IMG/VR virus record: IMGVR_UViG_3300039106_000401
Coordinates: 1-41,550 of that record
Length of the DNA: 41,550 nt
Direction: 5' to 3' (one strand)
Origin: a virus
Shown piece after piece: positions 1 to 13,481 of this stretch. Below the pieces are notes generated by a model, which saw only the letters and a list, made by a program, of their open reading frames with translations, searched no databases and was not told the origin of the DNA. The translations under genes were made by a program, and so were the position numbers. The first letter of the stretch is position 1; every line of letters starts with the position of its first letter.

Positions 1-102
1 CCTGTAACTCCACCACCACCAACTCCACCACCTGTAACTCCACCACCACCAACTCCACCACCTGTAACTCCACCACCTGCAACTCCACCACCACCTCCAC
101 CA
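1..102 (+). repeat. Tandem repeat encoding PVTPPPPTPP
   Basis: Two identical 30-base units (1-30 and 31-60) are followed by a 15-base half unit (61-75) and a diverged copy in which GTA becomes GCA (76-102). Units begin CCTGTAACTCCACC. Every unit is a whole number of codons, so copy-number change would keep the frame. The array may extend left of the window. Confidence 0.9.
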
Positions 103-174
103 ACCTGCGATTGTGTCTTTAGTGATGGAGGAGATACATATTACTACTACAATAATTGTCAGAACCCTTGCTAG
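1..174 (+). CDS. C-terminal end of a proline-repeat, Cys-tailed protein (partial)
   Basis: The frame is open from the first base and stops at TAG 172-174, giving 57 visible residues; the start lies outside the window. Residues 1-34 are a repeat of PVTPPPPTPP and shorter variants. The tail holds four cysteines (CDC, then NNC and NPC at the very end), a Tyr run and a DGG turn. Such a Pro/Thr-rich stalk with a small Cys-rich tip fits a surface-exposed virion appendage, but only the end is visible and no family can be named. A promoter and the gene at 222 follow directly. The Pro/Thr repeats are plausible targets of the hydroxylase and glycosyltransferase encoded 0.6-2.2 kb downstream; that is inference. 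Confidence 0.75.
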   Translation, partial: PVTPPPPTPPPVTPPPPTPPPVTPPPATPPPPPPTCDCVFSDGGDTYYYYNNCQNPC

Positions 175-183
175 TAAGGCACA

Positions 184-192
184 TGATATAAT
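184..192 (+). promoter_or_regulatory. Extended -10 promoter for the 222-2347 gene group
   Basis: TGATATAAT, with TATAAT at 187-192, lies 10 bases after the stop of the proline-repeat gene and 29 bases before ATG 222. I see no -35 element at 16-18 bp spacing. It probably starts a transcript covering 222-2347. Confidence 0.6.
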
Positions 193-221
193 AAAGATTG
201 AATTTAAAAAAGGAGAATAAA

Positions 222-608
222 ATGGATGTAAATCAACTTGAACGCATTTTAGTAAGATTGTCTGTAGATGGAGAACTTGCTCAAGAATTACAACTAATTG
301 TTAATGGCTATGATCCACACCCTTTGGGAGTTGCTCTTAAAAATGGCATGACTAGTCATATTCATTACAATGATATTTATAATATTCCAGTCAAAGGAAT
401 GATTTATGAAGATGAAATTTTTATTGATGGACCAAACGGAGAAACTTTTAGAACACATTATCCAGCAAGAGATCTAGATTATGATCTTTTTATTTTTTTA
501 AAAGATAATGAGGTTTTAGATTTTTGGCTTGCTCCATCACAGCATCCACTTTATAAAGAAACTGTACCAATTTTAAAAAGCAATCCTACTTTTGAAATAG
601 TTGAGTAA
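222..608 (+). CDS. Hypothetical protein, 128 aa
   Basis: I chose ATG 222 because AAGGAG lies just upstream at 7-8 bases; a TTG further upstream at 198 overlaps this site and is unlikely. The product (MDVNQLERIL...) is acidic and looks like a single globular domain, with no signal peptide, membrane segment or catalytic motif that I recognise. Its middle reads like a mixed beta fold (IYNIPVKGMIYEDEIFIDG). It is the first gene after the promoter at 184-192 and is followed seven bases later by a small Cys protein and then by the GT60/hydroxylase pair, so it may belong to that group. Function unknown. Confidence 0.8.
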   Translation: MDVNQLERILVRLSVDGELAQELQLIVNGYDPHPLGVALKNGMTSHIHYNDIYNIPVKGMIYEDEIFIDGPNGETFRTHYPARDLDYDLFIFLKDNEVLDFWLAPSQHPLYKETVPILKSNPTFEIVE

Positions 609-614
609 TATTTC

Positions 615-845
615 ATGGAGTATAAAAATGCCTGGGAAGAATATAAGGCAAAAAATAATGTAACTCCCCTTGACTTACTTAATAAAAATAACTATATAGA
701 AAAAATAGAATCAGACAAAAGAATGGATATTTGTTTAGGTTGCGAACATTTAATTAAGTTAACACATCAATGTAAAAAATGTGGCTGTTTTATGAATTTA
801 AAAACTAAACTTAAAGATGCAAGGTGTCCGATTGAAAAGTGGTAA
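615..845 (+). CDS. Small zinc-ribbon-like protein, 76 aa
   Basis: The C-terminal half carries CLGCEHL, then CKKCGCFM, then a last cysteine in ARCPIEKW. Two CxxC-type pairs plus extra cysteines suggest binding of one zinc ion. Short proteins with the pattern C-x2-C ... CK-x-CGCFM-x2-K ... CP-x3-W are, from memory, frequent in marine and freshwater phages and are annotated as hypothetical. The N-terminus is charged and probably helical. ATG 615 follows the previous stop by 6 bases; no good Shine-Dalgarno is seen, so translation may be coupled. The 3' end overlaps the glycosyltransferase start by 29 bases. It could be an adaptor or regulator; the function is unknown. Confidence 0.8.
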   Translation: MEYKNAWEEYKAKNNVTPLDLLNKNNYIEKIESDKRMDICLGCEHLIKLTHQCKKCGCFMNLKTKLKDARCPIEKW

Positions 846-1794
846 AATTTATGTTTCTATAGCATCTTATAGAGATCCATATTTACAAAGTACAATTGAT
901 TCATTATTTTGTGAAGCAGATAATCCAGAAAATATAACTGTTGGATGCTTTATTCATGCTTTAGAAAATGAATTTGAAACTTTAAAATTAAAAAGAACAT
1001 ATGATGAAAAAGTTAAATATGAAATTGAAACTCCTGGACAAATTTTTAGTGTTACAGCATGCAGGAATCGTTGTTTAAAATGGCTTGATGATAGTTATGA
1101 GTATGTACTTCAAATAGATTCACATTCAAGGTTCGATCAAGGTTGGGATACAACATTAATAAATATTATAAAATCAATAGATGATAAAAAATCAATATTA
1201 AGTGGAGCACTGCCCACTTTTGATATTTTTGAAGATGGCACAGAAGAAAAAAAAGAACAAACTGATCCAATTTCTTTTATAATGCACAGCGAAATAACAA
1301 AACAAGCATTACTTCATACATATGACTTACCTGGAAAACCAATTATTTTAGAACCAATAGAAGGGAAAAAATATGCCAGAGATTGGTATATGACAGGACA
1401 TTTTATTTTTGCTCATACAGAATATTTTAAAACTATTCCACAACCAGAATGGGTTTTATTTTGGGGGGAAGAGGTATTGAATGGATTAAGAACATTTACC
1501 GCAGGATGGAATGTATACATACCAATAGACATACCCATTTATCATTTATATTCTGATCGAATAAAAAGGCCAAGGCTTGTAGACGATTTTCCAGAAAAAT
1601 ATTTTATTCAAAGAGATTATACAACTAATAGAATTATTGACATACTAATAGGAAAAGATATTAAAGATGGTGATATTTTTTATGAAAGAAGCATGAGCGA
1701 TTTTTATATACACGTTGGATATAATCTTGGAGAATTTTTTGATTTTTGGAGAAAGTGGAGAAAGGAATTATTTGATGTTGGAAGAAATGTTTAA
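817..1794 (+). CDS. GT60-type (Skp1 GlcNAc-transferase-like) glycosyltransferase
   Basis: Residues 11-20 read IYVSIASYRD followed by Pro, the hallmark opening of the GlcNAc family (Pfam GlcNAc, CAZy GT60). The donor/metal site follows as LQIDSHSRF (residues 98-106), with D101 and H103. Upstream is a conserved Arg segment (ACRNRC, 81-86), and later come HFIFAH and FWGEE. Known family members are retaining, UDP-GlcNAc-using enzymes; Dictyostelium Gnt1 modifies hydroxyproline on Skp1, and trypanosome relatives modify Thr in mucins. At 325 residues it is about one catalytic domain with no signal or membrane segment, so it should act in the host cytoplasm. ATG 817 is preferred, but TTG 832 is possible. 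The end overlaps the hydroxylase gene by 20 bases. Donor sugar and acceptor are inferred. Confidence 0.82.
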   Translation: MQGVRLKSGKIYVSIASYRDPYLQSTIDSLFCEADNPENITVGCFIHALENEFETLKLKRTYDEKVKYEIETPGQIFSVTACRNRCLKWLDDSYEYVLQIDSHSRFDQGWDTTLINIIKSIDDKKSILSGALPTFDIFEDGTEEKKEQTDPISFIMHSEITKQALLHTYDLPGKPIILEPIEGKKYARDWYMTGHFIFAHTEYFKTIPQPEWVLFWGEEVLNGLRTFTAGWNVYIPIDIPIYHLYSDRIKRPRLVDDFPEKYFIQRDYTTNRIIDILIGKDIKDGDIFYERSMSDFYIHVGYNLGEFFDFWRKWRKELFDVGRNV

Positions 1795-2347
1795 CGCAAA
1801 AACAATTGAAAACTTTTTATCAATAAAAGATTTAGACATAATTTTAAATTATGCAAAATCAACAGAGAGTTGGGAAGGTAGCGATTTTTGGAAAGATCGT
1901 ATTTTGTCCATACAAAAAATTAATAATGAAAATAAAGAGGTTTCGCTACTTCTTTTCAACTTATTAATGAAACAAAAAGAATATATATCAAATAGTTATA
2001 ATTTAAATACCATGATATATTCTGACGCATTTGTTTTAGTCAAATGGCTTCCAGGACAAGAACAGTCTCCACATTCAGATAATATGATAGATACTCCCGA
2101 TCATATAAATCATAAACATAGAGAGTATGGGTCTATAGTTTACTTAAATAATGATTTTTTTGGAGGAGAAACCTTTTACCCACAACACAATGTTAGTATA
2201 GTTCCAAAATCAAGAATGCTTGCAGTACATCCTGCAGATGATAATCACATGCATGGTGTTTCTAAAATAGAAAATGGAATTAGATATACAGTCGCTTCTT
2301 TTTGGACATTTGATAAAGAAAAATCTAATGAATGTCTTACATTTTAA
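1775..2347 (+). CDS. 2-oxoglutarate/Fe(II) oxygenase, prolyl 4-hydroxylase-like
   Basis: The 190-residue product has the HxD...H iron triad of P4H-type dioxygenases: H100 and D102 in SPHSDN, and H160 in NHMHGVSKI. R170, ten residues after H160, is the expected 2-oxoglutarate anchor. The strands between them (YGSIVYLNNDFFGGETFYP) match the double-stranded beta-helix core of this family, including the GGET turn. Known activity: 2OG + O2 + peptidyl-Pro gives hydroxyproline + succinate + CO2. I placed the start at ATG 1775, which has AAAGGA at 8 bases; the longer ATG 1715 lies deep inside the glycosyltransferase gene. The 20-base overlap with that gene suggests coupled translation and joint function. 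The substrate is unproven; the nearby Pro-rich protein is the obvious candidate. It meets the minus-strand lysozyme gene end to end. Confidence 0.85.
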   Translation: MLEEMFNAKTIENFLSIKDLDIILNYAKSTESWEGSDFWKDRILSIQKINNENKEVSLLLFNLLMKQKEYISNSYNLNTMIYSDAFVLVKWLPGQEQSPHSDNMIDTPDHINHKHREYGSIVYLNNDFFGGETFYPQHNVSIVPKSRMLAVHPADDNHMHGVSKIENGIRYTVASFWTFDKEKSNECLTF

Positions 2348-2883
2348 TCAGGATATCTTGCTAACCACTCTTTAGTCTTCCAAGTAATGCCCTTCCAGGC
2401 TGACCAGTCCTTACCACCATCACTCATATGATAAGCGATCTCTGCATTCTTAACGGGATCGAATAGATCTTCGTTAGACTCTAGATTAAATTTATCCCGT
2501 CGATCTTGACCCATTGATCCTAGCATATTGATTTGAAATAGGCCATAGGAATTATCTCCAGTATTTCTGTTGGGATTCCAAGAATTAGGAGTACCCATAG
2601 ATTCTTTCATTACCGTTGCCCAAGCAACTTTTAGTGCATATCCTTCAAAACCTACAGACTTTAATATTTTAATTAGTTCATCTTTTTCAAGAGGGGTTCC
2701 ATATTTGTATTTTTTACTAGGCTTATTATTTTTTTCTTCAGAAACTAAAAAAACCGCCTCAGCGGTTTGGGCCTCACTTTTTGTTATCTTAGTACTCAAA
2801 TTGTTTTCAGCATTAGCAGAAGAATTAGCAAAAAATGCTACCGCTGCTACTCCTGAAATTACAATCATTGCCGATTTATTCAT
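2344..2883 (-). CDS. Secreted lysozyme-like / lytic transglycosylase protein
   Basis: Residues 1-25 form a Sec signal peptide: a basic start, a hydrophobic core (MIVISGVAAVAFFA) and an ANA cleavage site. A low-complexity charged linker (about 26-62) leads to a lysozyme-fold domain: AWATVMKESMG with the likely catalytic Glu94, the NPNRNTGDNSYGLFQINM signature, and a late WSAW. This matches the SLT/GH23-like domain of actinophage and actinobacterial cell-wall enzymes that cut peptidoglycan glycan strands. The start ATG at 2883 has a strong AAAGGAGG site. It is the only minus-strand gene, has its own promoter, and its stop overlaps the hydroxylase stop by four bases. A terminator-like hairpin lies within codons 39-46. 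It may serve in lysis or in superinfection/host-wall processing. Confidence 0.85.
   Translation of the reverse strand: MNKSAMIVISGVAAVAFFANSSANAENNLSTKITKSEAQTAEAVFLVSEEKNNKPSKKYKYGTPLEKDELIKILKSVGFEGYALKVAWATVMKESMGTPNSWNPNRNTGDNSYGLFQINMLGSMGQDRRDKFNLESNEDLFDPVKNAEIAYHMSDGGKDWSAWKGITWKTKEWLARYPD
2747..2768 (-). terminator. Terminator-like hairpin inside the lysozyme gene
   Basis: On the minus strand AAACCGC-TGAG-GCGGTTT forms a 7 bp stem with a 4-base loop and runs straight into TTTT (seven T in all). It lies about 160-175 bases after the predicted transcript start, within the signal-peptide/linker part of the coding sequence. Read on the plus strand the hairpin is followed by TTTGGG and would be weak. 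Confidence 0.5.
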
Positions 2884-3656: not shown

Positions 3657-4103
3657 ATGGCCCGTCTATCACTAGCAAATTTAAAGTTAAGATTTCAAAC
3701 AGGAGATCGTCCTTCACAGACTGATTATGAAGATTTTATTGACACATCAAGCGCTCAAGCAACTGATTTAGGCACCACTGGAAACAATGAGTCAACAATC
3801 AACGGCATTGAAAGTGCTACAGTAATTGATAATTTTGATGCAACAGAATGGAGATCTGTTAAGTATTCGGTCTCTATTAAAAAGACTTCTGGTGGCGCAA
3901 ATAAATACTACGCAACAGAAATGGTTGTTCTTGTTGACGGTACCGATGTATCTGTCACTGAGTATGGCCTTATTGACAATGATGGGAATATTGGCACCAT
4001 TAGCGTCTCCCGTGCTGGAAATACAGTATCCTTAACGGTTACTCCAGTCATCGGTATAACCCCAATCACTGTACGTTATTCACGTACAGGATTAAAGGCA
4101 TAA
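3657..4103 (+). CDS. Virion protein with the duplicated fibre C-terminal domain
   Basis: Residues 1-30 hold MARLSLANLKLRFQTGDRP, then SQTDYEDFID, a conserved phage fibre/neck N-terminus. Residues 55-148 form a beta domain (ATVIDNFDATEWRSVKYSV, ATEMVVLVDGTDVSVTEYG, ISVSRAGNTVSLTVTPV). The same domain closes the 4121-6382 fibre protein (TTIDTFSATTYSAAKYFV, EMLVAVDGNNNVYVTEYG), so the two genes share a module, probably a receptor-facing or trimer-capping beta domain. The -10 box is six bases before the ATG, so the mRNA should be leaderless. A short hairpin at 4069-4089 lacks a T run. The next gene follows after an AAAAAGGAG site and is probably co-transcribed. Confidence 0.75.
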   Translation: MARLSLANLKLRFQTGDRPSQTDYEDFIDTSSAQATDLGTTGNNESTINGIESATVIDNFDATEWRSVKYSVSIKKTSGGANKYYATEMVVLVDGTDVSVTEYGLIDNDGNIGTISVSRAGNTVSLTVTPVIGITPITVRYSRTGLKA

Positions 4104-4120: not shown

Positions 4121-6382
4121 ATGGCAACAGTAGATAAAGATTTTAAAATAAAAAATGGTTTAATTGTTGAAGGTGCATCAGCAACTGTTAATGGTAAGAA
4201 TGTTATCACAGCAGGAGTTGTAGATGCTAAAGGTGATTTAATCGTTGGTAGCGCAGATGATGCAGTAGCAAGACTTGGCGTTGGAACCAACGGACAGGTC
4301 CTCACTGCAGCGTCAGGTGCAACTTATGGAGTTCAGTGGTCAGATCCAGCAGCAGTTGGAGTATTTACAGAAAGCATTGTATTCGAAGGTGCAACAGCAG
4401 ATGCCTATGAGACAACACTTGCAGTAACTGATCCAACAGCAGATCGCACAATTACACTTCCAAACGCTTCTGGTACAGTAGCATTAACTTCAGATGTTTC
4501 AGCACATGCAGACTTGACAGAAGCACATGGAGCAACTGGGGCAGTAGTTGGAACAACAAACACTCAAACACTTACAAACAAAACTTTAACATCACCAAAG
4601 ATTAATGAAAATGTTGCACTTACAGCCACCGCTACAGAACTTAACACACTTGATGGAATTACAGCGTCTACCGCTGAACTTAACATCCTTAATGGTGTTA
4701 CTTCTACAGCAGCAGAACTCAACATTCTTGATGGAGCAACACTTACTACAACAGAACTTAACTATGTAGATGGCGTTACATCAGCAATTCAAACACAGTT
4801 AAATGCTAAGTTTGATTCAGCAAATGCGTCAACAACAAATATTTCAGAAGGCTCAAACCTTTACTTTACCGATGAAAGAGCACAAGATGCTATTGGTAAT
4901 AATGTTGGTACTGGTCTTTCATATAATGACTCAACAGGTGCTATCTCTGTAAATACATCAACAATTCAAGCAAGAGTTGCAGACGTTTCAGACACAGAGA
5001 TTGGATATCTAAATGGTGTTACATCAGCAATCCAAACTCAAATTGACGGCAAGCAAGCAATTGTTGCGAATGTGTCAGACACAGAGATTGGATACCTTGA
5101 TGGAGTAACTTCAGGAATCCAAACACAACTTAATGCAAAACTAGCACTCGCTGGCGGAACAATGACTGGCGCAATTGCAATGGGCACAAACAAGATCACT
5201 GGTCTTGGAGCACCAACAGATTCAGGAGATGCTGCTACAAAGGCTTACGTAGATGCAGTTACTGAAGGACTTCATGTTCATCCATCAGCACGAGCAGCAG
5301 TTCTTACAAATATTGCAATTGCTACCGCTCTTGAAAATGGAGACACTGCTGGTGGAGTAACACTTGCAACAGGAGATCGTATTCTCCTTAATGGTCAGAC
5401 AAATGGTGCAGAAAACGGTATTTACGTAGTTCAGGCTTCAGGTCAAGCACTTCGTGCAACAGACTTTGATACTGCAACAGAAGTAGATAGTGGAGACTTT
5501 ATCTTCGTAAGTGCTGGTACCTATGCTAATACAGGATGGGTGCAAACACTTAAGCCAGCAACAATTGGAACAGATCCAATATCATTTACACAGTTCTCAG
5601 GTGCTGGTACATTTACTGCAGGTAATGGATTAACACTAACTGGTACAGTATTTAGTATTGATACAGCAATTACACAAACTCGTGTTGCAGATGTATCTGA
5701 TACAGAGATTGGCTACTTAAATGGTGTTACTTCAGCAATTCAAACACAGATTAATGCTAAGGCACCAACTGCTGATCCTACATTTACTGGAACAGTAACA
5801 GTTCCAAATGGTTCAAGTTTAGGAACACCAACAAGTTTAACACTTACAAATGCTACTGGTCTTCCAGTATCAACTGGTATTTCTGGTCTTGGAACTGATG
5901 TTGCAACATTCTTGGGAACTCCTTCCTCAGCAAACCTTCGCTCTGCTGTTACTGATGAAACAGGAACTGGTGCTCTAGTATTTGCTAATACACCAACTCT
6001 TGTTACTCCAGTACTCGGAGCAGCATCAGGTACTAGCATTGATCTTACTTCTCATATAACATTTGCAGATACTCTCATTGGATCTGCTACAGCAACTGCT
6101 GGTACTTCAGCAACAACAATTGATACATTCTCAGCAACAACATATTCTGCTGCTAAATATTTTGTCCAAATGAAAAAGGATAATGATATTGAAGTAATTG
6201 AGATGCTTGTTGCAGTAGATGGAAACAATAACGTTTATGTTACCGAATATGGTAATGTTGTAAGCAACGTAGAACTTGGAACAACAAATGCTGTTTATAG
6301 CGGTGGAAATGTTCTTCTTCAAGTAACTGCTGCTGCTGCAGGAACAAGCGTTAAGGTTTCAAAGACATACATCGAAGCATAA
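4121..6382 (+). CDS. Repeat-rich tail fibre protein, 753 aa
   Basis: The N-terminus MATVDKDFKIKNGLIVEG is shared with the gene at 6404. Then come FEGATADAYETTLAVTDPTA, followed by DRTITLPNASGTVAL (about residues 90-125), a chain of TAELNILDGVT units (165-225), and three DVSDTEIGYLNGVTSAIQTQ units. The middle has ALAGGTMTGAI then DAATKAYVD (about 345-385) and an ATGDRILLNGQTNGAENGIY domain (about 420-445), both frequent in phage side fibres. The last 95 residues repeat the domain found in the gene at 3657. This architecture is typical of trimeric fibres used for host attachment. The start has AAAAAGGAG at a good distance. The gene has no promoter of its own and should be on the 3657 transcript. 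Confidence 0.85.
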   Translation: MATVDKDFKIKNGLIVEGASATVNGKNVITAGVVDAKGDLIVGSADDAVARLGVGTNGQVLTAASGATYGVQWSDPAAVGVFTESIVFEGATADAYETTLAVTDPTADRTITLPNASGTVALTSDVSAHADLTEAHGATGAVVGTTNTQTLTNKTLTSPKINENVALTATATELNTLDGITASTAELNILNGVTSTAAELNILDGATLTTTELNYVDGVTSAIQTQLNAKFDSANASTTNISEGSNLYFTDERAQDAIGNNVGTGLSYNDSTGAISVNTSTIQARVADVSDTEIGYLNGVTSAIQTQIDGKQAIVANVSDTEIGYLDGVTSGIQTQLNAKLALAGGTMTGAIAMGTNKITGLGAPTDSGDAATKAYVDAVTEGLHVHPSARAAVLTNIAIATALENGDTAGGVTLATGDRILLNGQTNGAENGIYVVQASGQALRATDFDTATEVDSGDFIFVSAGTYANTGWVQTLKPATIGTDPISFTQFSGAGTFTAGNGLTLTGTVFSIDTAITQTRVADVSDTEIGYLNGVTSAIQTQINAKAPTADPTFTGTVTVPNGSSLGTPTSLTLTNATGLPVSTGISGLGTDVATFLGTPSSANLRSAVTDETGTGALVFANTPTLVTPVLGAASGTSIDLTSHITFADTLIGSATATAGTSATTIDTFSATTYSAAKYFVQMKKDNDIEVIEMLVAVDGNNNVYVTEYGNVVSNVELGTTNAVYSGGNVLLQVTAAAAGTSVKVSKTYIEA

Positions 6383-6403
6383 TAAATAAAAGTAGGGGGA
6401 TAA

Positions 6404-6880
6404 ATGGCAACAGTAGATAAAGACTTTAAGGTAAAGAATGGCTTAAACGTAGCCACAACAGGTACCTTTGGTGGAGTAGTTACAGTTGCCACCCCGACTC
6501 AAAATGCACACGCAACAACTAAGTTATATGTTGATACCGCTATTAGTGGAATTGTTTCAAACGTTCTTCCAACGGAATCAACTGCTCCAGTTTCACCAGT
6601 AGATGGTCAAGTATACTTTGATACAGTCACAAGACATCTTTCAATATATTCAACGGATGCTGCAGACTGGATCATGATTGCTACTTTTGATGATACTGCA
6701 AACTTGAGACAACATATTCATGATACTGCAATTGATGGAACGGGACTTATTACTACCGTTTTTCAAGATGCAGGAGCATATGATGATGTATTCTCTTCAA
6801 CACAAATTGCAGGGTTTTATGACACAGTAGAGTGGTTAACTAGTTATGATGGCGGAAATCCGTTAGATAACTTTAATTAA
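6404..6880 (+). CDS. Short tail-fibre-like protein, 158 aa
   Basis: It begins MATVDKDFKVKNGLNV, nearly identical to the neighbour at 4121, so the attachment or chaperone-contact N-terminus has been duplicated. Next come THE NAHATTKLYVDTAISG element (an ATKxYVD-type fibre repeat), PVDGQVYFDTVTRHLSIYS, typical of the DGxxxxDTxTxxLxxY module of phage fibres, and a unique acidic C-terminus. The ribosome site is AGGGGG at 6 bases. It may be a second, minor fibre or a spacer, or a swapped receptor tip. The gene's 3' flank contains the promoter for the next fibre. Confidence 0.75.
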   Translation: MATVDKDFKVKNGLNVATTGTFGGVVTVATPTQNAHATTKLYVDTAISGIVSNVLPTESTAPVSPVDGQVYFDTVTRHLSIYSTDAADWIMIATFDDTANLRQHIHDTAIDGTGLITTVFQDAGAYDDVFSSTQIAGFYDTVEWLTSYDGGNPLDNFN

Positions 6881-6885
6881 TCATA

Positions 6886-6894
6886 TGTTATAAT
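6886..6894 (+). promoter_or_regulatory. Extended -10 promoter for the 6927 fibre gene
   Basis: TGTTATAAT with the hexamer at 6889-6894, 32 bases before ATG 6927. The leader contains the ribosome site CTAGGGGGA. Confidence 0.6.
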
Positions 6895-6926
6895 AAATAA
6901 AGAATAAAATCTAGGGGGATTTAATT

Positions 6927-9326
6927 ATGGCAACAAGAATGCAACAGAGACGAGGCACTGCAGCCCAATGGATATCAACAAATAGTGGCAATGGTCCAAT
7001 TCTTGCAGCGGGAGAAATCGGTTATGAGTCAGATACCAATAAGTTTAAAATTGGTGATGGCACAAACCACTGGATCAACCTTGATTACTTTATGGATGCA
7101 GACAGCACAACAAACCCCCAATTTGGCTCAAACATTAAATTTGAAGGTGCTACAGCAAATGCTTTTGAAACCACCCTAGCAGTAGTAGACCCTACAGCAG
7201 ATCGGACCATCACTCTTCCAGATTCTACTGGTACAGTTGTTCTTGCAGATGGCAGCGGTAACGTAACAGTTTCTGGTAATTTAACAGTTCAAGGAACAAC
7301 AACAACTATTGATAGTTCTACAATTGCAGTTACAAATTCGTTTGTATTTGAAGGTTCTACTGCTAATGACTATGAAACAACTCTTACAGTTACAGAACCC
7401 ACAGCAGATCGTACTCTTACACTTCAAGACGCAACTGGAACAATAGCACTTACTGCAGATGTTGTAACTCACGCAAACCTTACACTAGCACACGGTGCAT
7501 CTGGTGCGGTAGTTGGTACAACAAACGAACAAACTCTTACAAATAAAACACTTACAAGTCCAATAATTAATATGCCAACAGTTAGTGGTCTTGTCCTTAA
7601 TGACTCAAGCATTATGTTTGAAGGCTCTACAGCAGATGATTTTGAAACTGCTTTAGCAGTAGTAAACCCCACAGCAGACCGTGTTATTACTCTTCCAGAT
7701 GCAACAGGAACAGTAATTACAACAGGAAATGCTAGTGATTTAATTTTTAATACTAATATTGTTTTTGAAGGTGCTACAGCAAATGATTTTGAAACCACAT
7801 TAGCAGTAACAGATCCTACAGCAGATCGTACGATTGCTCTTCCAGATGCATCTGGCACAGTAGCACTTACTGCAGATATTGCTACACATGAGTCAGACAC
7901 AACAACCGTTCACGGTATTGCAGATACAGCAGATCTTGTAACAAAATCAGGCACACAAACCCTAGGAGGAGCAAAGACATTTACTGGAGATACTGTTCTT
8001 CCTGTAAATACCTCAATTGGAACCGTAACCTCTACTGAAATTGGGTATCTTGATGGAGTAACTTCTGCTATTCAAACTCAAATTGATGCAAAAGCACCAT
8101 TAGCCTCTCCTACATTTACAGGCACAGTAACTCTTCCCGCTAATACAATTTCACAGTCTATGATGGCAGATGACTCAGTTGGTACAAATGAAATTGGTGG
8201 ATTAGCAGTTACAGAAGCAAAGATTGCAGATGGAGCAGTAACTTCAGTAAAGATTGCAAATGGAACAATTGTTGATGGAGATATTAATGCATCAGCAGCA
8301 ATTGCACAGTCTAAAGTTGCAGATTTAACTACAGATCTTGCTGCAAAACTAGCACTTGCTGGTGGAACAATGACTGGAGCCCTAACACTTTCAGGTGCAC
8401 CTACATCTAACTTACACGCAGCAACAAAAGCATATGTAGATGGATTAGCAGCAGGAATTAACTTCCATCAACCAGTAGTTGCAGCAACAACAGGAAATCT
8501 TGCAGGTACATATAATAATGGAACAAGTGGAGTTGGAGCAACATTAACAAAAGCATCAAATGGTGCAATTGGTACAATTGATGGTGCAACTGTTGCTGCT
8601 GGAGATAGAATTCTTCTTCGTGCACAAACAGATACAACAGAAAACGGTATTTATACAATTACTGCAGTTGGAAGCGTGTCAGTTCCTTGGCAGATTACTC
8701 GTGCAACAGATGCCGATAATAATCCTTCTGGAGAACTTGCAACTGGAGACTTTACCTTTGTAACTGGTGGATCTACAAACATTGCAAAAGGATTTATTCT
8801 TAGCACAACAGGAACAATTACAATTGGTACAACTGCTGTAACCTATACACAATTTAATGCTTCAGAAGCAGTTACTGCAGGAACAAATATTTCTAAGGTT
8901 GGATCAACTATTGCAGTTATTGATGCACCAACATTCTCAGGACTAGTTACTGCATCAGCAACTGGTGTAGCATTTTCTGACGGTACACAAACTAAAGAAG
9001 GTGTACCATCAAGAACAGCAATTAGTACAATAACAGATACATACAACTTATCTACTGGTGGAGTAGCACTAAGAGATAGTTTAGTGGAATGTAACAAAGC
9101 AACTGGCTTTACTATCACAATCCCACTAAATTCTACAACTCCATTCCCAGTAGGAACATCTATTGATTTTCTTCAAATTGGGGCTGGACAGGTTACATTT
9201 GATAAAGCAGTAGGAGTAACATTGAATGCCACTCCAGGCTTTAAACTACGTTCTCAATGGTCTTCTGCAACTTTATTTAAACGAGCAACAGACAGTTGGG
9301 TATTAATGGGAGATTTGTCAGCATAA
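6927..9326 (+). CDS. Tail fibre with Mtd-like N-terminal domain, 799 aa
   Basis: The start MATRMQQRRGTAAQW, then ILAAGEIGYESDTNKFKIGD and WINLDYF, is the Mtd_N-type head found on many receptor-binding fibres. It is followed by four copies of a 35-residue unit, FEGATANAFETTLAVVDPTA with DRTITLPDSTGTV and variants (about residues 70-325), an EIGYLDGVTSAIQTQ unit, ALAGGTMTGAL with HAATKAYVD (about 475-510), and AAGDRILLRAQTDTTENGIY. The C-terminal 100 residues (AISTITDTYNLSTGG to the end) form a separate beta domain ending SWVLMGDLSA. No reverse transcriptase or template repeat is present, so this is not a visible diversity-generating system. The ribosome site is TAGGGGGA, with a promoter at 6886. 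Confidence 0.85.
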   Translation: MATRMQQRRGTAAQWISTNSGNGPILAAGEIGYESDTNKFKIGDGTNHWINLDYFMDADSTTNPQFGSNIKFEGATANAFETTLAVVDPTADRTITLPDSTGTVVLADGSGNVTVSGNLTVQGTTTTIDSSTIAVTNSFVFEGSTANDYETTLTVTEPTADRTLTLQDATGTIALTADVVTHANLTLAHGASGAVVGTTNEQTLTNKTLTSPIINMPTVSGLVLNDSSIMFEGSTADDFETALAVVNPTADRVITLPDATGTVITTGNASDLIFNTNIVFEGATANDFETTLAVTDPTADRTIALPDASGTVALTADIATHESDTTTVHGIADTADLVTKSGTQTLGGAKTFTGDTVLPVNTSIGTVTSTEIGYLDGVTSAIQTQIDAKAPLASPTFTGTVTLPANTISQSMMADDSVGTNEIGGLAVTEAKIADGAVTSVKIANGTIVDGDINASAAIAQSKVADLTTDLAAKLALAGGTMTGALTLSGAPTSNLHAATKAYVDGLAAGINFHQPVVAATTGNLAGTYNNGTSGVGATLTKASNGAIGTIDGATVAAGDRILLRAQTDTTENGIYTITAVGSVSVPWQITRATDADNNPSGELATGDFTFVTGGSTNIAKGFILSTTGTITIGTTAVTYTQFNASEAVTAGTNISKVGSTIAVIDAPTFSGLVTASATGVAFSDGTQTKEGVPSRTAISTITDTYNLSTGGVALRDSLVECNKATGFTITIPLNSTTPFPVGTSIDFLQIGAGQVTFDKAVGVTLNATPGFKLRSQWSSATLFKRATDSWVLMGDLSA

Positions 9327-9363: not shown

Positions 9364-10599
9364 ATGGCAACTAGAGGTAAAGGAATTAAAGCATCCGCAC
9401 AGGATAACTTTCTTGCTCCAAATGCACCAACAATAGGAACAGCAACAGATGTTGGAACTGCACGTGCATATAATAATGGTGCTGCAACTGTTACCTTTAC
9501 TCCAGCAACTTCAGGAAATGCTTCTGTAGTAACTGGATATACTGCTACATCATCTCCAGGATCTTTTACTGGAACATCAACAACCTCCCCAATTACAGTT
9601 ACTGGACTTCAATCAAACACAGCATATACATTTACGGTAGTAGCAAATAGTCCTTATGGATCATCTTCTGCATCAAGTGCAACCGCTTCTATGACTGCAA
9701 CAACAGTTCCTCAAGCACCAACAATTGGAACTACTACAACAACTGGGGATCCAGCACAAGATACAGTTAACTGGACAATTAATGCTACTGGTGGGAAGGC
9801 AATTACTGGTCATACAGTCGTTTCTTCTGATGGACCAACATATGCTGTTGGAGCAGCAGTTACATCAAGAGTAGTTGCAGAAACTGCGGGTACATCACAA
9901 TATTATTATGTATATGCAACAAATGATAATGGAAACTCAGCAAACTCATCAAACTCTAATACAGTAACAACACCTTCTCCCTTCTCTGCCTTTGGCGCTT
10001 TCGGTGCCTTCGGTGCTTTTGCTGCTTTCGGTGCCTTCGGTGCTTTTGCTGCTTTCGGTGCCTTCGGTGCTTTTGTTGCCTTTGGTGCATTTGGTGCTTT
10101 CTCTGCTTTCGGTGCTTTCTCTGCTCACAGTTGGGGAGATTCAATTGCAATTCAAACAAAAGTATTAACGCCAACAGGTACTAAGTTTATTGAAGATTTA
10201 GTTGTTGGAGATGTTTTATATGCAATGGATTTAGGTGGAGATACAACAACAAATTGGACAGAGTGGACATCCTCTGACATAGATTTAACAAATGATCGTG
10301 TTGTCGAAACAACTGTTATGTCTATAATTCCAGGAAATGCTGATAATTTTATTTCTATTAACGGAACATTGTATACACCTGCACACTATGTTCTAGTTAA
10401 AAAAGATGGAGTTACAAAATTTTTAAAAACACCAGAAATAGATACTACCTATGAAGTTTATCATTATGCAGAAGAAACATGGATGCCTATTACAGCAATT
10501 GAAAATGTAGGAGTTAATATGGACAAAATATCTATTAACTGTGAACCATATGATAACTTCTTTACTGAAAATATGCTTGTTTTTGACCGACCAGATTAA
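9364..10599 (+). CDS. Fibronectin-III / GAF-repeat / Hint-like virion protein
   Basis: The 411-residue product has four parts. Residues about 20-115 and 116-204 are two fibronectin type III-like domains (VTFTPATSGNASVVTGYTA, ITVTGLQSNTAYTFTVVA). Residues about 205-255 are a period-3 run of xAF triplets (mostly GAF, some AAF, SAF, VAF). Residues about 256-411 resemble a Hint (hedgehog/intein) domain: KVLTPTGTKFIEDLVVGDVL, then INGTLYTPAHYVLV, then NFFTENMLVFD. Active Hint domains start with Cys (sometimes Ser) and often end in His-Asn. Here S260 sits at that start and VFD replaces VHN, so splicing looks unlikely, though N-terminal cleavage is conceivable. It is the last gene of the fibre array and is probably a surface-exposed, sugar- or cell-binding appendage. 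The ribosome site is AAGGAG. Confidence 0.75.
   Translation: MATRGKGIKASAQDNFLAPNAPTIGTATDVGTARAYNNGAATVTFTPATSGNASVVTGYTATSSPGSFTGTSTTSPITVTGLQSNTAYTFTVVANSPYGSSSASSATASMTATTVPQAPTIGTTTTTGDPAQDTVNWTINATGGKAITGHTVVSSDGPTYAVGAAVTSRVVAETAGTSQYYYVYATNDNGNSANSSNSNTVTTPSPFSAFGAFGAFGAFAAFGAFGAFAAFGAFGAFVAFGAFGAFSAFGAFSAHSWGDSIAIQTKVLTPTGTKFIEDLVVGDVLYAMDLGGDTTTNWTEWTSSDIDLTNDRVVETTVMSIIPGNADNFISINGTLYTPAHYVLVKKDGVTKFLKTPEIDTTYEVYHYAEETWMPITAIENVGVNMDKISINCEPYDNFFTENMLVFDRPD
9997..10077 (+). repeat. Three 27-bp tandem repeats encoding AFGAFGAFA
   Basis: GCTTTCGGTGCCTTCGGTGC followed by TTTTGCT is present at 9997-10023 and 10024-10050, and with one change at 10051-10077. It sits within a longer, more degenerate GAF-coding run (about 9985-10128). 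The run is richer in G and C than the flanks. Confidence 0.9.
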
Positions 10600-11441: not shown

Positions 11442-13481
11442 ATGTCTGAAGTATTTTCTTTTCGCTTTTCTGATGATTTTGTAAACAAATATATTGAAAT
11501 TGAGCCACCATTTGGGTTCAAAGATGCAGGTGGAAACTCATTAGGAGAGATTACATTTGTTCGCACATACTCTCGTGTCAAAGATGATGGAACTAAGGAA
11601 AGATGGTATGAGGTTTGTAAAAGAGTAATCGAGGGTATGTACTCAGTACAGAAGAATCATGCAAAAGAAAACAGACTGCCTTGGAATGACTATAAAGCAC
11701 AAAAATCAGCACAAGAAGCATATGATCGTATGTTTAATCTCAAATGGACTCCACCAGGAAGAGGTCTTTGGGCTTTTGGAACTCCAATGACAATGGAAAA
11801 GAAAAACTCTGCTTCTCTTCAAAACTGTGCAATGGTTTCAACCAGAGACATTGATCGCAATGATCCTGGATCTTTGTTTGCGTGGGTAATGGACGCATTA
11901 ATGCTTGGAATTGGGGTTGGTTTTGACACGGTAGGTCAAGAAAAAGATCTATCTATTTATGCACCAACAGAGCCAGCATCTGTATATGATATTCCAGATA
12001 CTCGTGAAGGTTGGGTAGAATCCGTTAGACTTTTACTCAATTCATTCTTAAGAGCAAATCAACCAATTCAAGAATTTAACTATGATTTGATCCGTCCTCT
12101 AGGAGCCCCAATTAAGGGCTTTGGTGGGGTTGCAAGCGGTCCAAAACCATTAATAGATCTACATACAATGATCCGTAAAGTAATTGGTTCTAGAGCAGGA
12201 GAGAAGTTAGACTCTAGAGCAATTGTAGATATTGTAAACCTTATTGGAACATGTGTTGTTTCTGGAAATGTTCGCAGATCTGCAACCCTTGCTCTTGGAA
12301 ATCCAAACGATAAAGACTTTATTAATCTTAAAAACTCAGAAGTATTTCCAGATCGCAACTCATTTGATTCAGAAAGTCCAGGATGGGCATGGATGAGCAA
12401 TAACTCTATTGCTGCTGAAGTTGGAACTCATTACGAAGATTATGTAGATTTAATTGCAGATAATGGAGAGCCTGGTTTTATTTGGCTTGATGTTGCAAGA
12501 AATTATGGAAGACTAGCAGATCCAGCAGATGGAAAAGATTATCGTGTTATGGGATTCAATCCATGTGCAGAACAACCATTAGAATCTTATGAACTTTGTA
12601 CGCTTGTTGAAGTTCATTTAAATCGTCACACAGATAAAGAAGATTTTATGCGTACCTTAAAATTTGCATATCTTTATGGAAAAACTGTAACATTGCTTCC
12701 AACACATTGGCAAATTACAAACGGTATTATGCAAAGAAACCGCAGAATTGGAACATCCCTAACTGGAATTGCATCTTTTACTGATATCAATGGAATGCCA
12801 ACAACAAGAGAGTGGATGGACGAAGGATATAATAAAATTCGCCATTATGATAAGCAATATTCAGAATGGCTATGTGTTCGTGAATCAATTCGTGTAACTA
12901 CCGTAAAACCTTCAGGATCTGTCTCATTACTTTCTGGAGCATCTCCAGGAGTTCATTGGTCTGTTGGTGGAGAATATTTCTTACGTGCAATTCGTTTTGG
13001 AAATACAGACCCAATGTTGCACTTATTTAAAGCAGCAGGGTATAAAATTGAAGATGATTTAGTATCAGCAAATACTAGTGTAGTATACTTCCCAGTGTCT
13101 TCAGGACACCCAAGATCAGAGAAGGATGTAAGTCTTTTTGAAAAGATTGGTCTTGCTGCAACGACACAAAAGTATTGGTCAGATAATGGAGTCTCTGTAA
13201 CTTTATCTTTTGACAAAGAAACAGAAACAAAGCATATTGCTCCAGCACTTCATATGTATGAAGGTCAGTTAAAAGCAGTTTCATTCCTTCCAATGGGAAA
13301 TCATACTTATCCACAACAGCCATACACACAAATTACTAAAGAAGAGTATGATGTTTATGTTGGCAAGATTGCTCACATTAACTTTGATGCAATTTATGAC
13401 GGTATTGAGAATCTTGATTCCGTTGGAGAAATGTACTGCACTACAGATTATTGTGAAATTAAGGTAGAGACTGGTAACTAA
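11442..13481 (+). CDS. nrdJ: Class II (adenosylcobalamin-dependent) ribonucleoside-triphosphate reductase
   Basis: The 679-residue product matches the monomeric B12-dependent reductase family (Lactobacillus-type enzyme, about 740 aa). C129 (SLQNCAMVS) and C386 (SYELCTLVE) form the reducible pair. C375 and E377 in FNPCAEQPLE are the thiyl-radical cysteine and the acid. C666 and C671 near the end (YCTTDYC) are the C-terminal shuttle pair. GNVRRSATLALG and TVKPSGSVSLLSG are family hallmarks of the barrel. It reduces ribonucleotides to deoxyribonucleotides for phage DNA synthesis and needs no oxygen or partner subunit, but depends on host cobalamin. It stands alone amid structural genes with its own promoter and an AGGAGA site. 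No intein or truncation of the catalytic core is seen. Confidence 0.95.
   Translation: MSEVFSFRFSDDFVNKYIEIEPPFGFKDAGGNSLGEITFVRTYSRVKDDGTKERWYEVCKRVIEGMYSVQKNHAKENRLPWNDYKAQKSAQEAYDRMFNLKWTPPGRGLWAFGTPMTMEKKNSASLQNCAMVSTRDIDRNDPGSLFAWVMDALMLGIGVGFDTVGQEKDLSIYAPTEPASVYDIPDTREGWVESVRLLLNSFLRANQPIQEFNYDLIRPLGAPIKGFGGVASGPKPLIDLHTMIRKVIGSRAGEKLDSRAIVDIVNLIGTCVVSGNVRRSATLALGNPNDKDFINLKNSEVFPDRNSFDSESPGWAWMSNNSIAAEVGTHYEDYVDLIADNGEPGFIWLDVARNYGRLADPADGKDYRVMGFNPCAEQPLESYELCTLVEVHLNRHTDKEDFMRTLKFAYLYGKTVTLLPTHWQITNGIMQRNRRIGTSLTGIASFTDINGMPTTREWMDEGYNKIRHYDKQYSEWLCVRESIRVTTVKPSGSVSLLSGASPGVHWSVGGEYFLRAIRFGNTDPMLHLFKAAGYKIEDDLVSANTSVVYFPVSSGHPRSEKDVSLFEKIGLAATTQKYWSDNGVSVTLSFDKETETKHIAPALHMYEGQLKAVSFLPMGNHTYPQQPYTQITKEEYDVYVGKIAHINFDAIYDGIENLDSVGEMYCTTDYCEIKVETGN

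Follow-up and report, generated by a model that had tools for sequence, protein, structure and literature searches.

The first 2,347 bases of the genome record of an aquatic phage, IMG/VR IMGVR_UViG_3300039106_000401, encode the C-terminus of a proline- and threonine-rich (Pro/Thr-rich) repeat protein, a glycosyltransferase (GT) of family GT60 and an oxygenase resembling prolyl 4-hydroxylase (P4H). The window analyzed here is the entire linear record (41,550 bases, 34% G+C), and we consider it probable, at roughly 60%, that its left end is a cassette for the modification of a tail protein, in which a Pro-rich stalk would be modified by P4H together with GT60, the latter acting mainly on Thr and possibly on hydroxyproline (Hyp). 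As we picture it, the Pro-rich repeats would make up a stalk at the C-terminal end of a tail-associated protein, with a Cys-rich tip at its far end. In the infected cell, the stalk prolines would be hydroxylated by the P4H-like oxygenase at the expense of host 2-oxoglutarate (2OG), Fe(II) and O2, and GT60 would move the sugar of a UDP-sugar (N-acetylglucosamine, GlcNAc, by family precedent) onto stalk hydroxyls, mainly those of Thr and possibly those of hydroxyprolines formed in this way. Such a stalk, stiff, resistant to proteases and similar to mucin or extensin, would keep the receptor-binding tip at a distance from the tail or mask it.

The repeat protein and the two predicted enzymes

Translation of positions 1–171 gave a Pro/Thr-rich C-terminus, PVTPPPPTPPPVTPPPPTPPPVTPPPATPPPPPPT-CDCVFSDGGDTYYYYNNCQNPC, in which PVTPPPPTPPPVTPPPPTPPPVTPPPATPPPPPPT is the repeat part of the truncated gene and is followed by a short Cys-rich tail. 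The repeat, of 35 residues, is 69% Pro and 20% Thr, and the translation agrees with a preliminary description of the window, which had reported PVTPPPPTPP repeats at the end of this gene. That description had also placed the gene beside the enzymes; they do share one locus, but two open reading frames (ORFs) that it had overlooked, at 222–608 and 615–845, lie between them, and the Pro-rich gene is partial. The ORF at 222–608 had been listed from a TTG at 198, its ATG is preceded by AGGAG, and its product had no Pfam or PHROG match. In related loci, the Pro-rich repeats are also fused to fn3-like and PASTA domains, with a Cys-rich tip at the end, and in L014-type loci (L numbers denote individual viral loci) they are fused to a tail-fibre-like domain. 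Tail PHROGs surround the locus, and a virion protein is the target that we infer.

The product of 817–1794 scored 126.8 bits against PF11397, for which the curated cut-off is 21, and ten divergent relatives also passed this cut-off. The motifs SIASYRD and LQIDSHSRF, from which a GT60-like identity had been proposed, are present, and the Pfam match and the predicted fold bear that identity out. D101-x-H103, W110-D111, E219, R225 and H243 are invariant in an alignment of 26 sequences that reaches down to ~20% identity. Polypeptide N-acetylgalactosamine (GalNAc)-transferases start mucin-type O-glycosylation on Thr/Ser, and those of family GT27 bind Mn via D-x-H plus a second His. With its D-x-H and a distant His, the phage GT60 shows the same pattern as the GT27 metal site. 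When a predicted model (pLDDT 91) was compared with known structures, the top PDB matches were GT-A polypeptide GalNAc-transferases, of which T2 was the best (TMq ~0.6, E 4e-10), at 11–16% identity and ~490 versus ~325 residues; the teichoic-acid transferase TarP was among the lower-ranked matches. The enzyme is thus predicted to adopt a GT-A fold, and its acidic/His metal motif is conserved. The likeness to GT27 lies in these fold matches and in D-x-H, whereas by sequence the phage enzyme belongs to PF11397. The activity predicted by analogy with the family would be alpha-GlcNAc transfer to a polypeptide hydroxyl, of either Thr or Hyp. Sequence searches found no GT60 structure, and no GT60 relatives were found in annotated phages. 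Distant PF11397 proteins occur in other viral contigs (L096–L099, around 8013), which carry neither this type of P4H nor a Pro-rich gene.

In the oxygenase, a PF13640 protein, H100, D102, H160 and R170 (numbered from M1775) are invariant in 40 of 40 aligned relatives. Its sequence matches to prolyl hydroxylases are weak alone (E 0.005–0.014). The AlphaFold2 model (pLDDT 94.9) matched prolyl hydroxylases first, namely human P3H1 (TMq 0.78), PHD2 (~0.70), vCPH of Paramecium bursaria chlorella virus 1 (PBCV-1; 0.67) and Bacillus anthracis P4H (0.62). Nearly all of the best 50 matches were prolyl hydroxylases (P3H1, vCPH, bacterial P4H, PHD2 and C-P4H-II), accompanied by one lysyl hydroxylase and one unassigned oxygenase. 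The model places an H-x-D...H iron triad and a basic 2OG-binding residue on a double-stranded beta-helix and is closer to prolyl than to other hydroxylases, so that prolyl hydroxylase chemistry is supported by the predicted structure; the fold fits 3- and 4-hydroxylation alike, the best match being a 3-hydroxylase. The four residues had been named in the preliminary description as those of a P4H-like oxygenase, and both enzymes fall, by sequence and by predicted fold, into the families named there. The 20-base overlap with the GT60 gene given in the same description holds for the ATG at 1775, but a start at 1787 reduces it to 8 bases. Both starts are possible, because AAAGGA stands eight bases before 1775 while relatives start with MNNAK or MFNAK, equivalent to 1787 in the window, and have the 8-base overlap (L005, L006 and L009). 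Among annotated phages, only distant cyanophage P4Hs were found. The family phrog_2297, named 'DNA endonuclease', matches this 2OG oxygenase, and a cyanophage gene (NC_031242.1, 19704–20174) carries the same name, which is probably a wrong annotation.

Recurrence of the cassette and natural swaps

Scans with single proteins and with alignments, together with a control scan based on a tail gene, provided ~175 viral loci. Dozens of contigs from uncultured phages carry, in variously rearranged forms, a cassette with the order Pro-rich protein, small gene, DUF6171, a mix of enzymes, often DUF6065, and then lysozyme. The enzyme mix varies and draws on GT60, GT61 (PF04577), radical SAM/SPASM proteins, cupin-like proteins and one to six P4H-like genes. 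The order seen in the window, in which DUF6171 is followed by GT60 and P4H, recurs in other contigs and is therefore not due to chance. The pair itself is found as GT60-P4H, P4H-GT60 and GT60-P4H-GT60, and some of the GT60s are only 20–26% identical to that of the window; these varied orders and divergent enzymes suggest repeated assembly. A Pro-rich ORF was present in the loci with both GT60 and P4H that extend at least ~1.5 kb upstream, as well as in several truncated contigs, with the exception of L062, where a Thr/Ser/Cys-rich protein takes its place. The co-occurrence of the gene pair with Pro-rich proteins, which the preliminary description had proposed to survey in relatives, is thus borne out apart from this locus; both enzymes may act on one shared repeat protein.

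The density of strong Pro-rich ORFs was 0.32 per kb over the 2 kb ahead of DUF6171 and 0.011 per kb in the remainder of these loci. Among loci anchored on the tail gene, those with P4H, GT60 or GT61 under a strict, post hoc definition had a Pro-rich gene in 5/5 cases and the others in 4/14 (Fisher p 0.011). The corresponding table for all loci (37/43 versus 1/7, p 0.0004) is biased by the enzyme queries.

Near-identical backbones with different cassettes were also found. The window and L018 share 95% identity over the 4.7 kb that follow the cassette on its right, and the lysozyme genes of L018, L101 and L104 are 94% identical to that of L003. On this shared backbone, the window has GT60 and P4H with VT/PT repeats. 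L003/L004 have GT60 with (PPPTT)n repeats, and their P4H has been cut to a 31-residue remnant by an internal deletion of ~460 bases. In L013/L018, GT60 is absent, P4H (with paralogues) comes immediately after DUF6171, and the repeats are Thr-poor (PPPPPIIIxEPP). L101, a locus with none of the enzymes, encodes a Thr/Ser/Cys-rich protein without a Pro repeat; L104 and L108, in which only a distant P4H paralogue is kept, are also without a Pro repeat. These comparisons indicate that either enzyme can be lost singly and that, in these examples, the loci with neither strict enzyme have no Pro repeats either. Elsewhere, P4H occurs without GT60 (L020, L021, L047, L052 and others, in addition to L013 and L018), and GT60 occurs without P4H in L090–L092, L146, L158 and L178 as in L003/L004, in all cases with Thr-containing Pro repeats.

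Several further arrangements were noted in the scans. Sister cassettes (L014, L015, L016 at 4504–8564, L056, L079 and L086) combine radical SAM/SPASM, one or two GT61 and mostly a cupin-like protein near P4H. A second tail cluster (L132, L139, L143, L149, L150, L159 and L164) has another class of repeat, PFFPPFFPP, in tail proteins, which often precede several distant P4H paralogues and DUF6065. Possible further modification genes lie at L049:11815-12849, L049:14826-16253, L019:4398-5810 and L046:3702-4592, and include O-FucT-like and sulfotransferase-like genes, both below cut-off, and repeated ~470-residue proteins that look carbamoyltransferase-like by eye.

Acceptor residue and alternative readings

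Among 42 non-redundant cassettes, Thr made up a median fraction of 0.21 of the Pro-rich core where GT60/GT61 is present and 0.075 where it is not (p 0.0036), although the class without GT is not clean, since a GT61 lies further along in L056, an O-FucT-like gene was seen below cut-off in L049, and L085 carries an epimerase and an unassigned gene. Among strict-P4H cassettes the difference had p 0.027, and in GT-bearing cassettes without P4H the repeat always contained Thr, at a fraction of 0.10–0.33. The Thr-GT link is suggestive, not established. The GT-bearing cassettes with Thr-free repeats (L046, L079 and L064–L072) all carry P4H, so that Hyp is a possible acceptor there. A phage pathway to O-glycosylated, extensin-like Hyp on a tail stalk, in which P4H would make Hyp and GT60, or GT61 in the sister cassettes with Thr-free PPVV repeats, would add the sugar, is a tentative proposal, and glycosylated Hyp is a possible outcome of the glycosyltransferase step without being the leading one.

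A stricter version, in which P4H makes 4-hydroxyproline first and GT60 then glycosylates solely that residue, follows the Skp1 model on which the preliminary description had drawn. The 8–20-base overlap of the two genes in the window and its relatives and the P4H in every Thr-free GT cassette are in line with it, as is the requirement of Toxoplasma Gnt1, a GT60, for a hydroxylated Skp1 proline as acceptor (PMC6939170). Nevertheless, GT60 is kept with Thr-containing repeats where P4H is absent or, in L003/L004, deleted, and its predicted fold is nearest to the Thr/Ser GalNAc-transferases. On this genomic evidence a dependence of GT60 on the prolyl hydroxylase is not supported; the strict chain is unlikely, and action on Thr rather than only on Hyp appears more likely from the loci and the models. 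The main rival to a modification cassette is that a hypervariable tail-fibre module is swapped as a block, the enzymes acting elsewhere and co-occurring with Pro-rich genes by linkage. The locus is clearly modular, being exchanged between flanks of 94–95% identity, and the relatedness-corrected tests are low in power; yet the Pro-rich gene persists while the enzyme families turn over (GT60, GT61, radical SAM, one to six P4H-like genes, in differing orders), the type of repeat changes along with the enzyme content, and the enzyme-free block has no Pro repeats. We regard such hitchhiking as improbable.

The literature usually connects viral P4Hs with collagen (PMC9301287), and a collagen-like tail protein (~245 aa, Gly-X-Y repeats) lies a few kb upstream in many relatives. 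Collagen-like fibres are encoded in some P4H loci without a Pro-rich gene (L034–L036, L050 and L080), and in a marine virus relative GPPGPEGPP repeats directly precede the P4H. A collagen-like protein is nevertheless found without any P4H or GT in L105, L142, L144 and L164, and strict-P4H loci with Pro-rich genes (L023, L058, L059, L064–L072 and L084) have none within 6.5 kb. As its presence does not track P4H, we rejected the neighboring collagen-like protein as the real P4H target, and a P4H directed at collagen with a GT60 acting elsewhere is quite improbable. It is very unlikely that the enzymes are directed at the host, where GT60 would modify a wall polymer, for example to exclude superinfecting phages, and P4H would act on a protein such as EF-Tu. 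TarP among the lower-ranked fold matches and the title of PDB entry 5v7y, according to which B. anthracis P4H modifies EF-Tu, would fit such a role, but it leaves unexplained the fixed place behind Pro-rich tail proteins and the covariation with repeat type.

Several observations weigh against the modification of a Pro-rich tail stalk that we favor. The case is built from genomic comparison and structural models, and the 5′ part of the Pro-rich gene lies beyond the contig start. The strict enzyme split behind the tail-gene-anchored comparison was defined after the data had been seen, and a broad definition gave a borderline result (8/12 versus 1/7, p 0.057). The Thr-GT link was not significant after correction for relatedness, for which only 2–4 independent contrasts were usable on the trees. 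There are also loci that do not fit: L046 and L079 combine GT61 with Thr-free PPVV repeats, the L064–L072 group combines GT60 with Thr-free poly-Pro, L143 has TPTPTP repeats and no detected GT, and L164 has Pro repeats with no enzyme before lysozyme. Finally, a P4H subgroup (L027–L037, L043–L045, L048 and L050) is without a nearby Pro-rich gene; some of its members have collagen-like fibres, and collagen may be the P4H target there.

Genome context and relation to known systems

Table 1. Coordinates of the cassette and its right flank in the window.
Feature	Position	Strand	Evidence
Pro/Thr-rich protein gene, 3′ end; PVTPPPPTPP-type repeat, then short Cys-rich tail; putative substrate	1..171	+	Translation; relatives L003, L005, L009–L011, L014, L040 and L087 share repeat and Cys-rich tail
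Small variable gene (~128 aa) between the Pro-rich gene and DUF6171	222..608	+	Similar-sized gene at this position in relatives
DUF6171 protein, CKKCGCFM motif; constant cassette marker	615..845	+	PF19668, E 1.2e-6; phrog_13558; found in most cassettes
GT60-family glycosyltransferase	817..1794	+	PF11397, E 1.8e-36; 26-sequence alignment; model
Prolyl-hydroxylase-like 2OG-Fe(II) oxygenase, start 1775 or 1787	1775..2347	+	PF13640, E 1.7e-6; 40-sequence alignment; model
Lysozyme-like (SLT_3) gene; right boundary marker of the cassette	2344..2883	-	PF18896, E 3.4e-16; same place in relatives
Conserved tail-locus gene; enzyme-independent control anchor	3657..4103	+	phrog_967 (tail); used as alignment for scan

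To the right of the lysozyme-like gene, the window encodes tail-fibre-like proteins and then ribonucleotide reductase (RNR), portal, protease, capsid, tape measure and minor tail proteins. Portal and capsid are nearest to those of Streptomyces phages of the Stanwilliamsviridae (46% and ~42%, respectively), and the order RNR-portal-protease-capsid-tape measure at 11442–35085 is similar to that of Streptomyces phage Blueeyedbeauty (NC_048720.1). Blueeyedbeauty has two GT4-like genes before RNR; we considered whether this pair of GTs in the nearest cultured relatives could correspond to the GT60 of the window and rejected the idea, since they are GT4-like, not GT60. The structural genes of this siphovirus are nearest to those of actinobacteriophages, and an actinobacterial host is a guess. 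No tRNAs that could serve as a host clue were found in the window, and among 84,980 species genomes the patterns used found no relatives of GT60 or of the P4H-like enzyme and hence gave no clue to host or origin. The product of 9364–10599 (fn3-like, then GAFGAF repeats) has a C-terminus that resembles intein/Hint-like ends, a likeness that is unconfirmed. An intein/Hint-like domain ends some repeat-bearing tail proteins, as in L041:2176-3282 (PF14890, E 1.7e-6, below cut-off), and the L041 and L150 proteins both end in ...VHNK.

The GT60 of Trypanosoma cruzi acts on Thr-rich mucins. The family includes this polypeptide alpha-GlcNAc-transferase as well as Toxoplasma Gnt1 (PMC6939170), and Thr/Pro-rich repeats are the likely acceptor of the phage member too; the T. 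cruzi enzyme is eukaryotic, whereas the phage GT60 is a putative polypeptide transferase from a virus. The Skp1 pathway of Dictyostelium and Toxoplasma likewise pairs a prolyl hydroxylase, PhyA, with a GT60, Gnt1 (PMC6939170). It differs in that its target is a single cytosolic proline in one protein and that Gnt1 requires Hyp, whereas the phage cassettes have a repeat-rich, tail-associated protein and can lose either enzyme alone.

PBCV-1 vCPH is, like the phage oxygenase that it matches in fold, a viral prolyl hydroxylase, but it belongs to an algal virus, and we know of no GT60 partner for it. It was characterized with viral-protein peptides, according to the title of Eriksson 1999 (cited in PMC9301287), and a note cited in PMC7019647 is quoted there as reporting no Hyp in PBCV-1 particles. 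Cyanophage 2OG-Fe(II) oxygenases belong to the same superfamily and, in S-RIM50, lie a few genes from tail-fibre genes, but they are 24–38% identical to that of the window and have no GT60 annotated alongside; no Pro-rich ORF was found near the S-RIM50 oxygenase in that stretch.

No description of such a cassette, or of such protein decoration by bacteriophages, was found in the open-access papers searched, and in a study of viruses from the Baltic the use that viruses make of P4H is described as cryptic (PMC9301287). The cassette offers a concrete, repetitive candidate substrate beside the enzyme, in many related phages and with natural gain and loss of each enzyme on a near-identical backbone. 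If our reading is correct, its small enzymes, which could probably be expressed in bacteria, would be a source of hydroxylated or glycosylated repeats. Phages would then make mucin- or extensin-like stalks, and both the surface of their virions and the binding of receptors would hinge on a post-translational chemistry, fed by host oxygen, iron and 2-oxoglutarate, that is invisible in the gene sequence.

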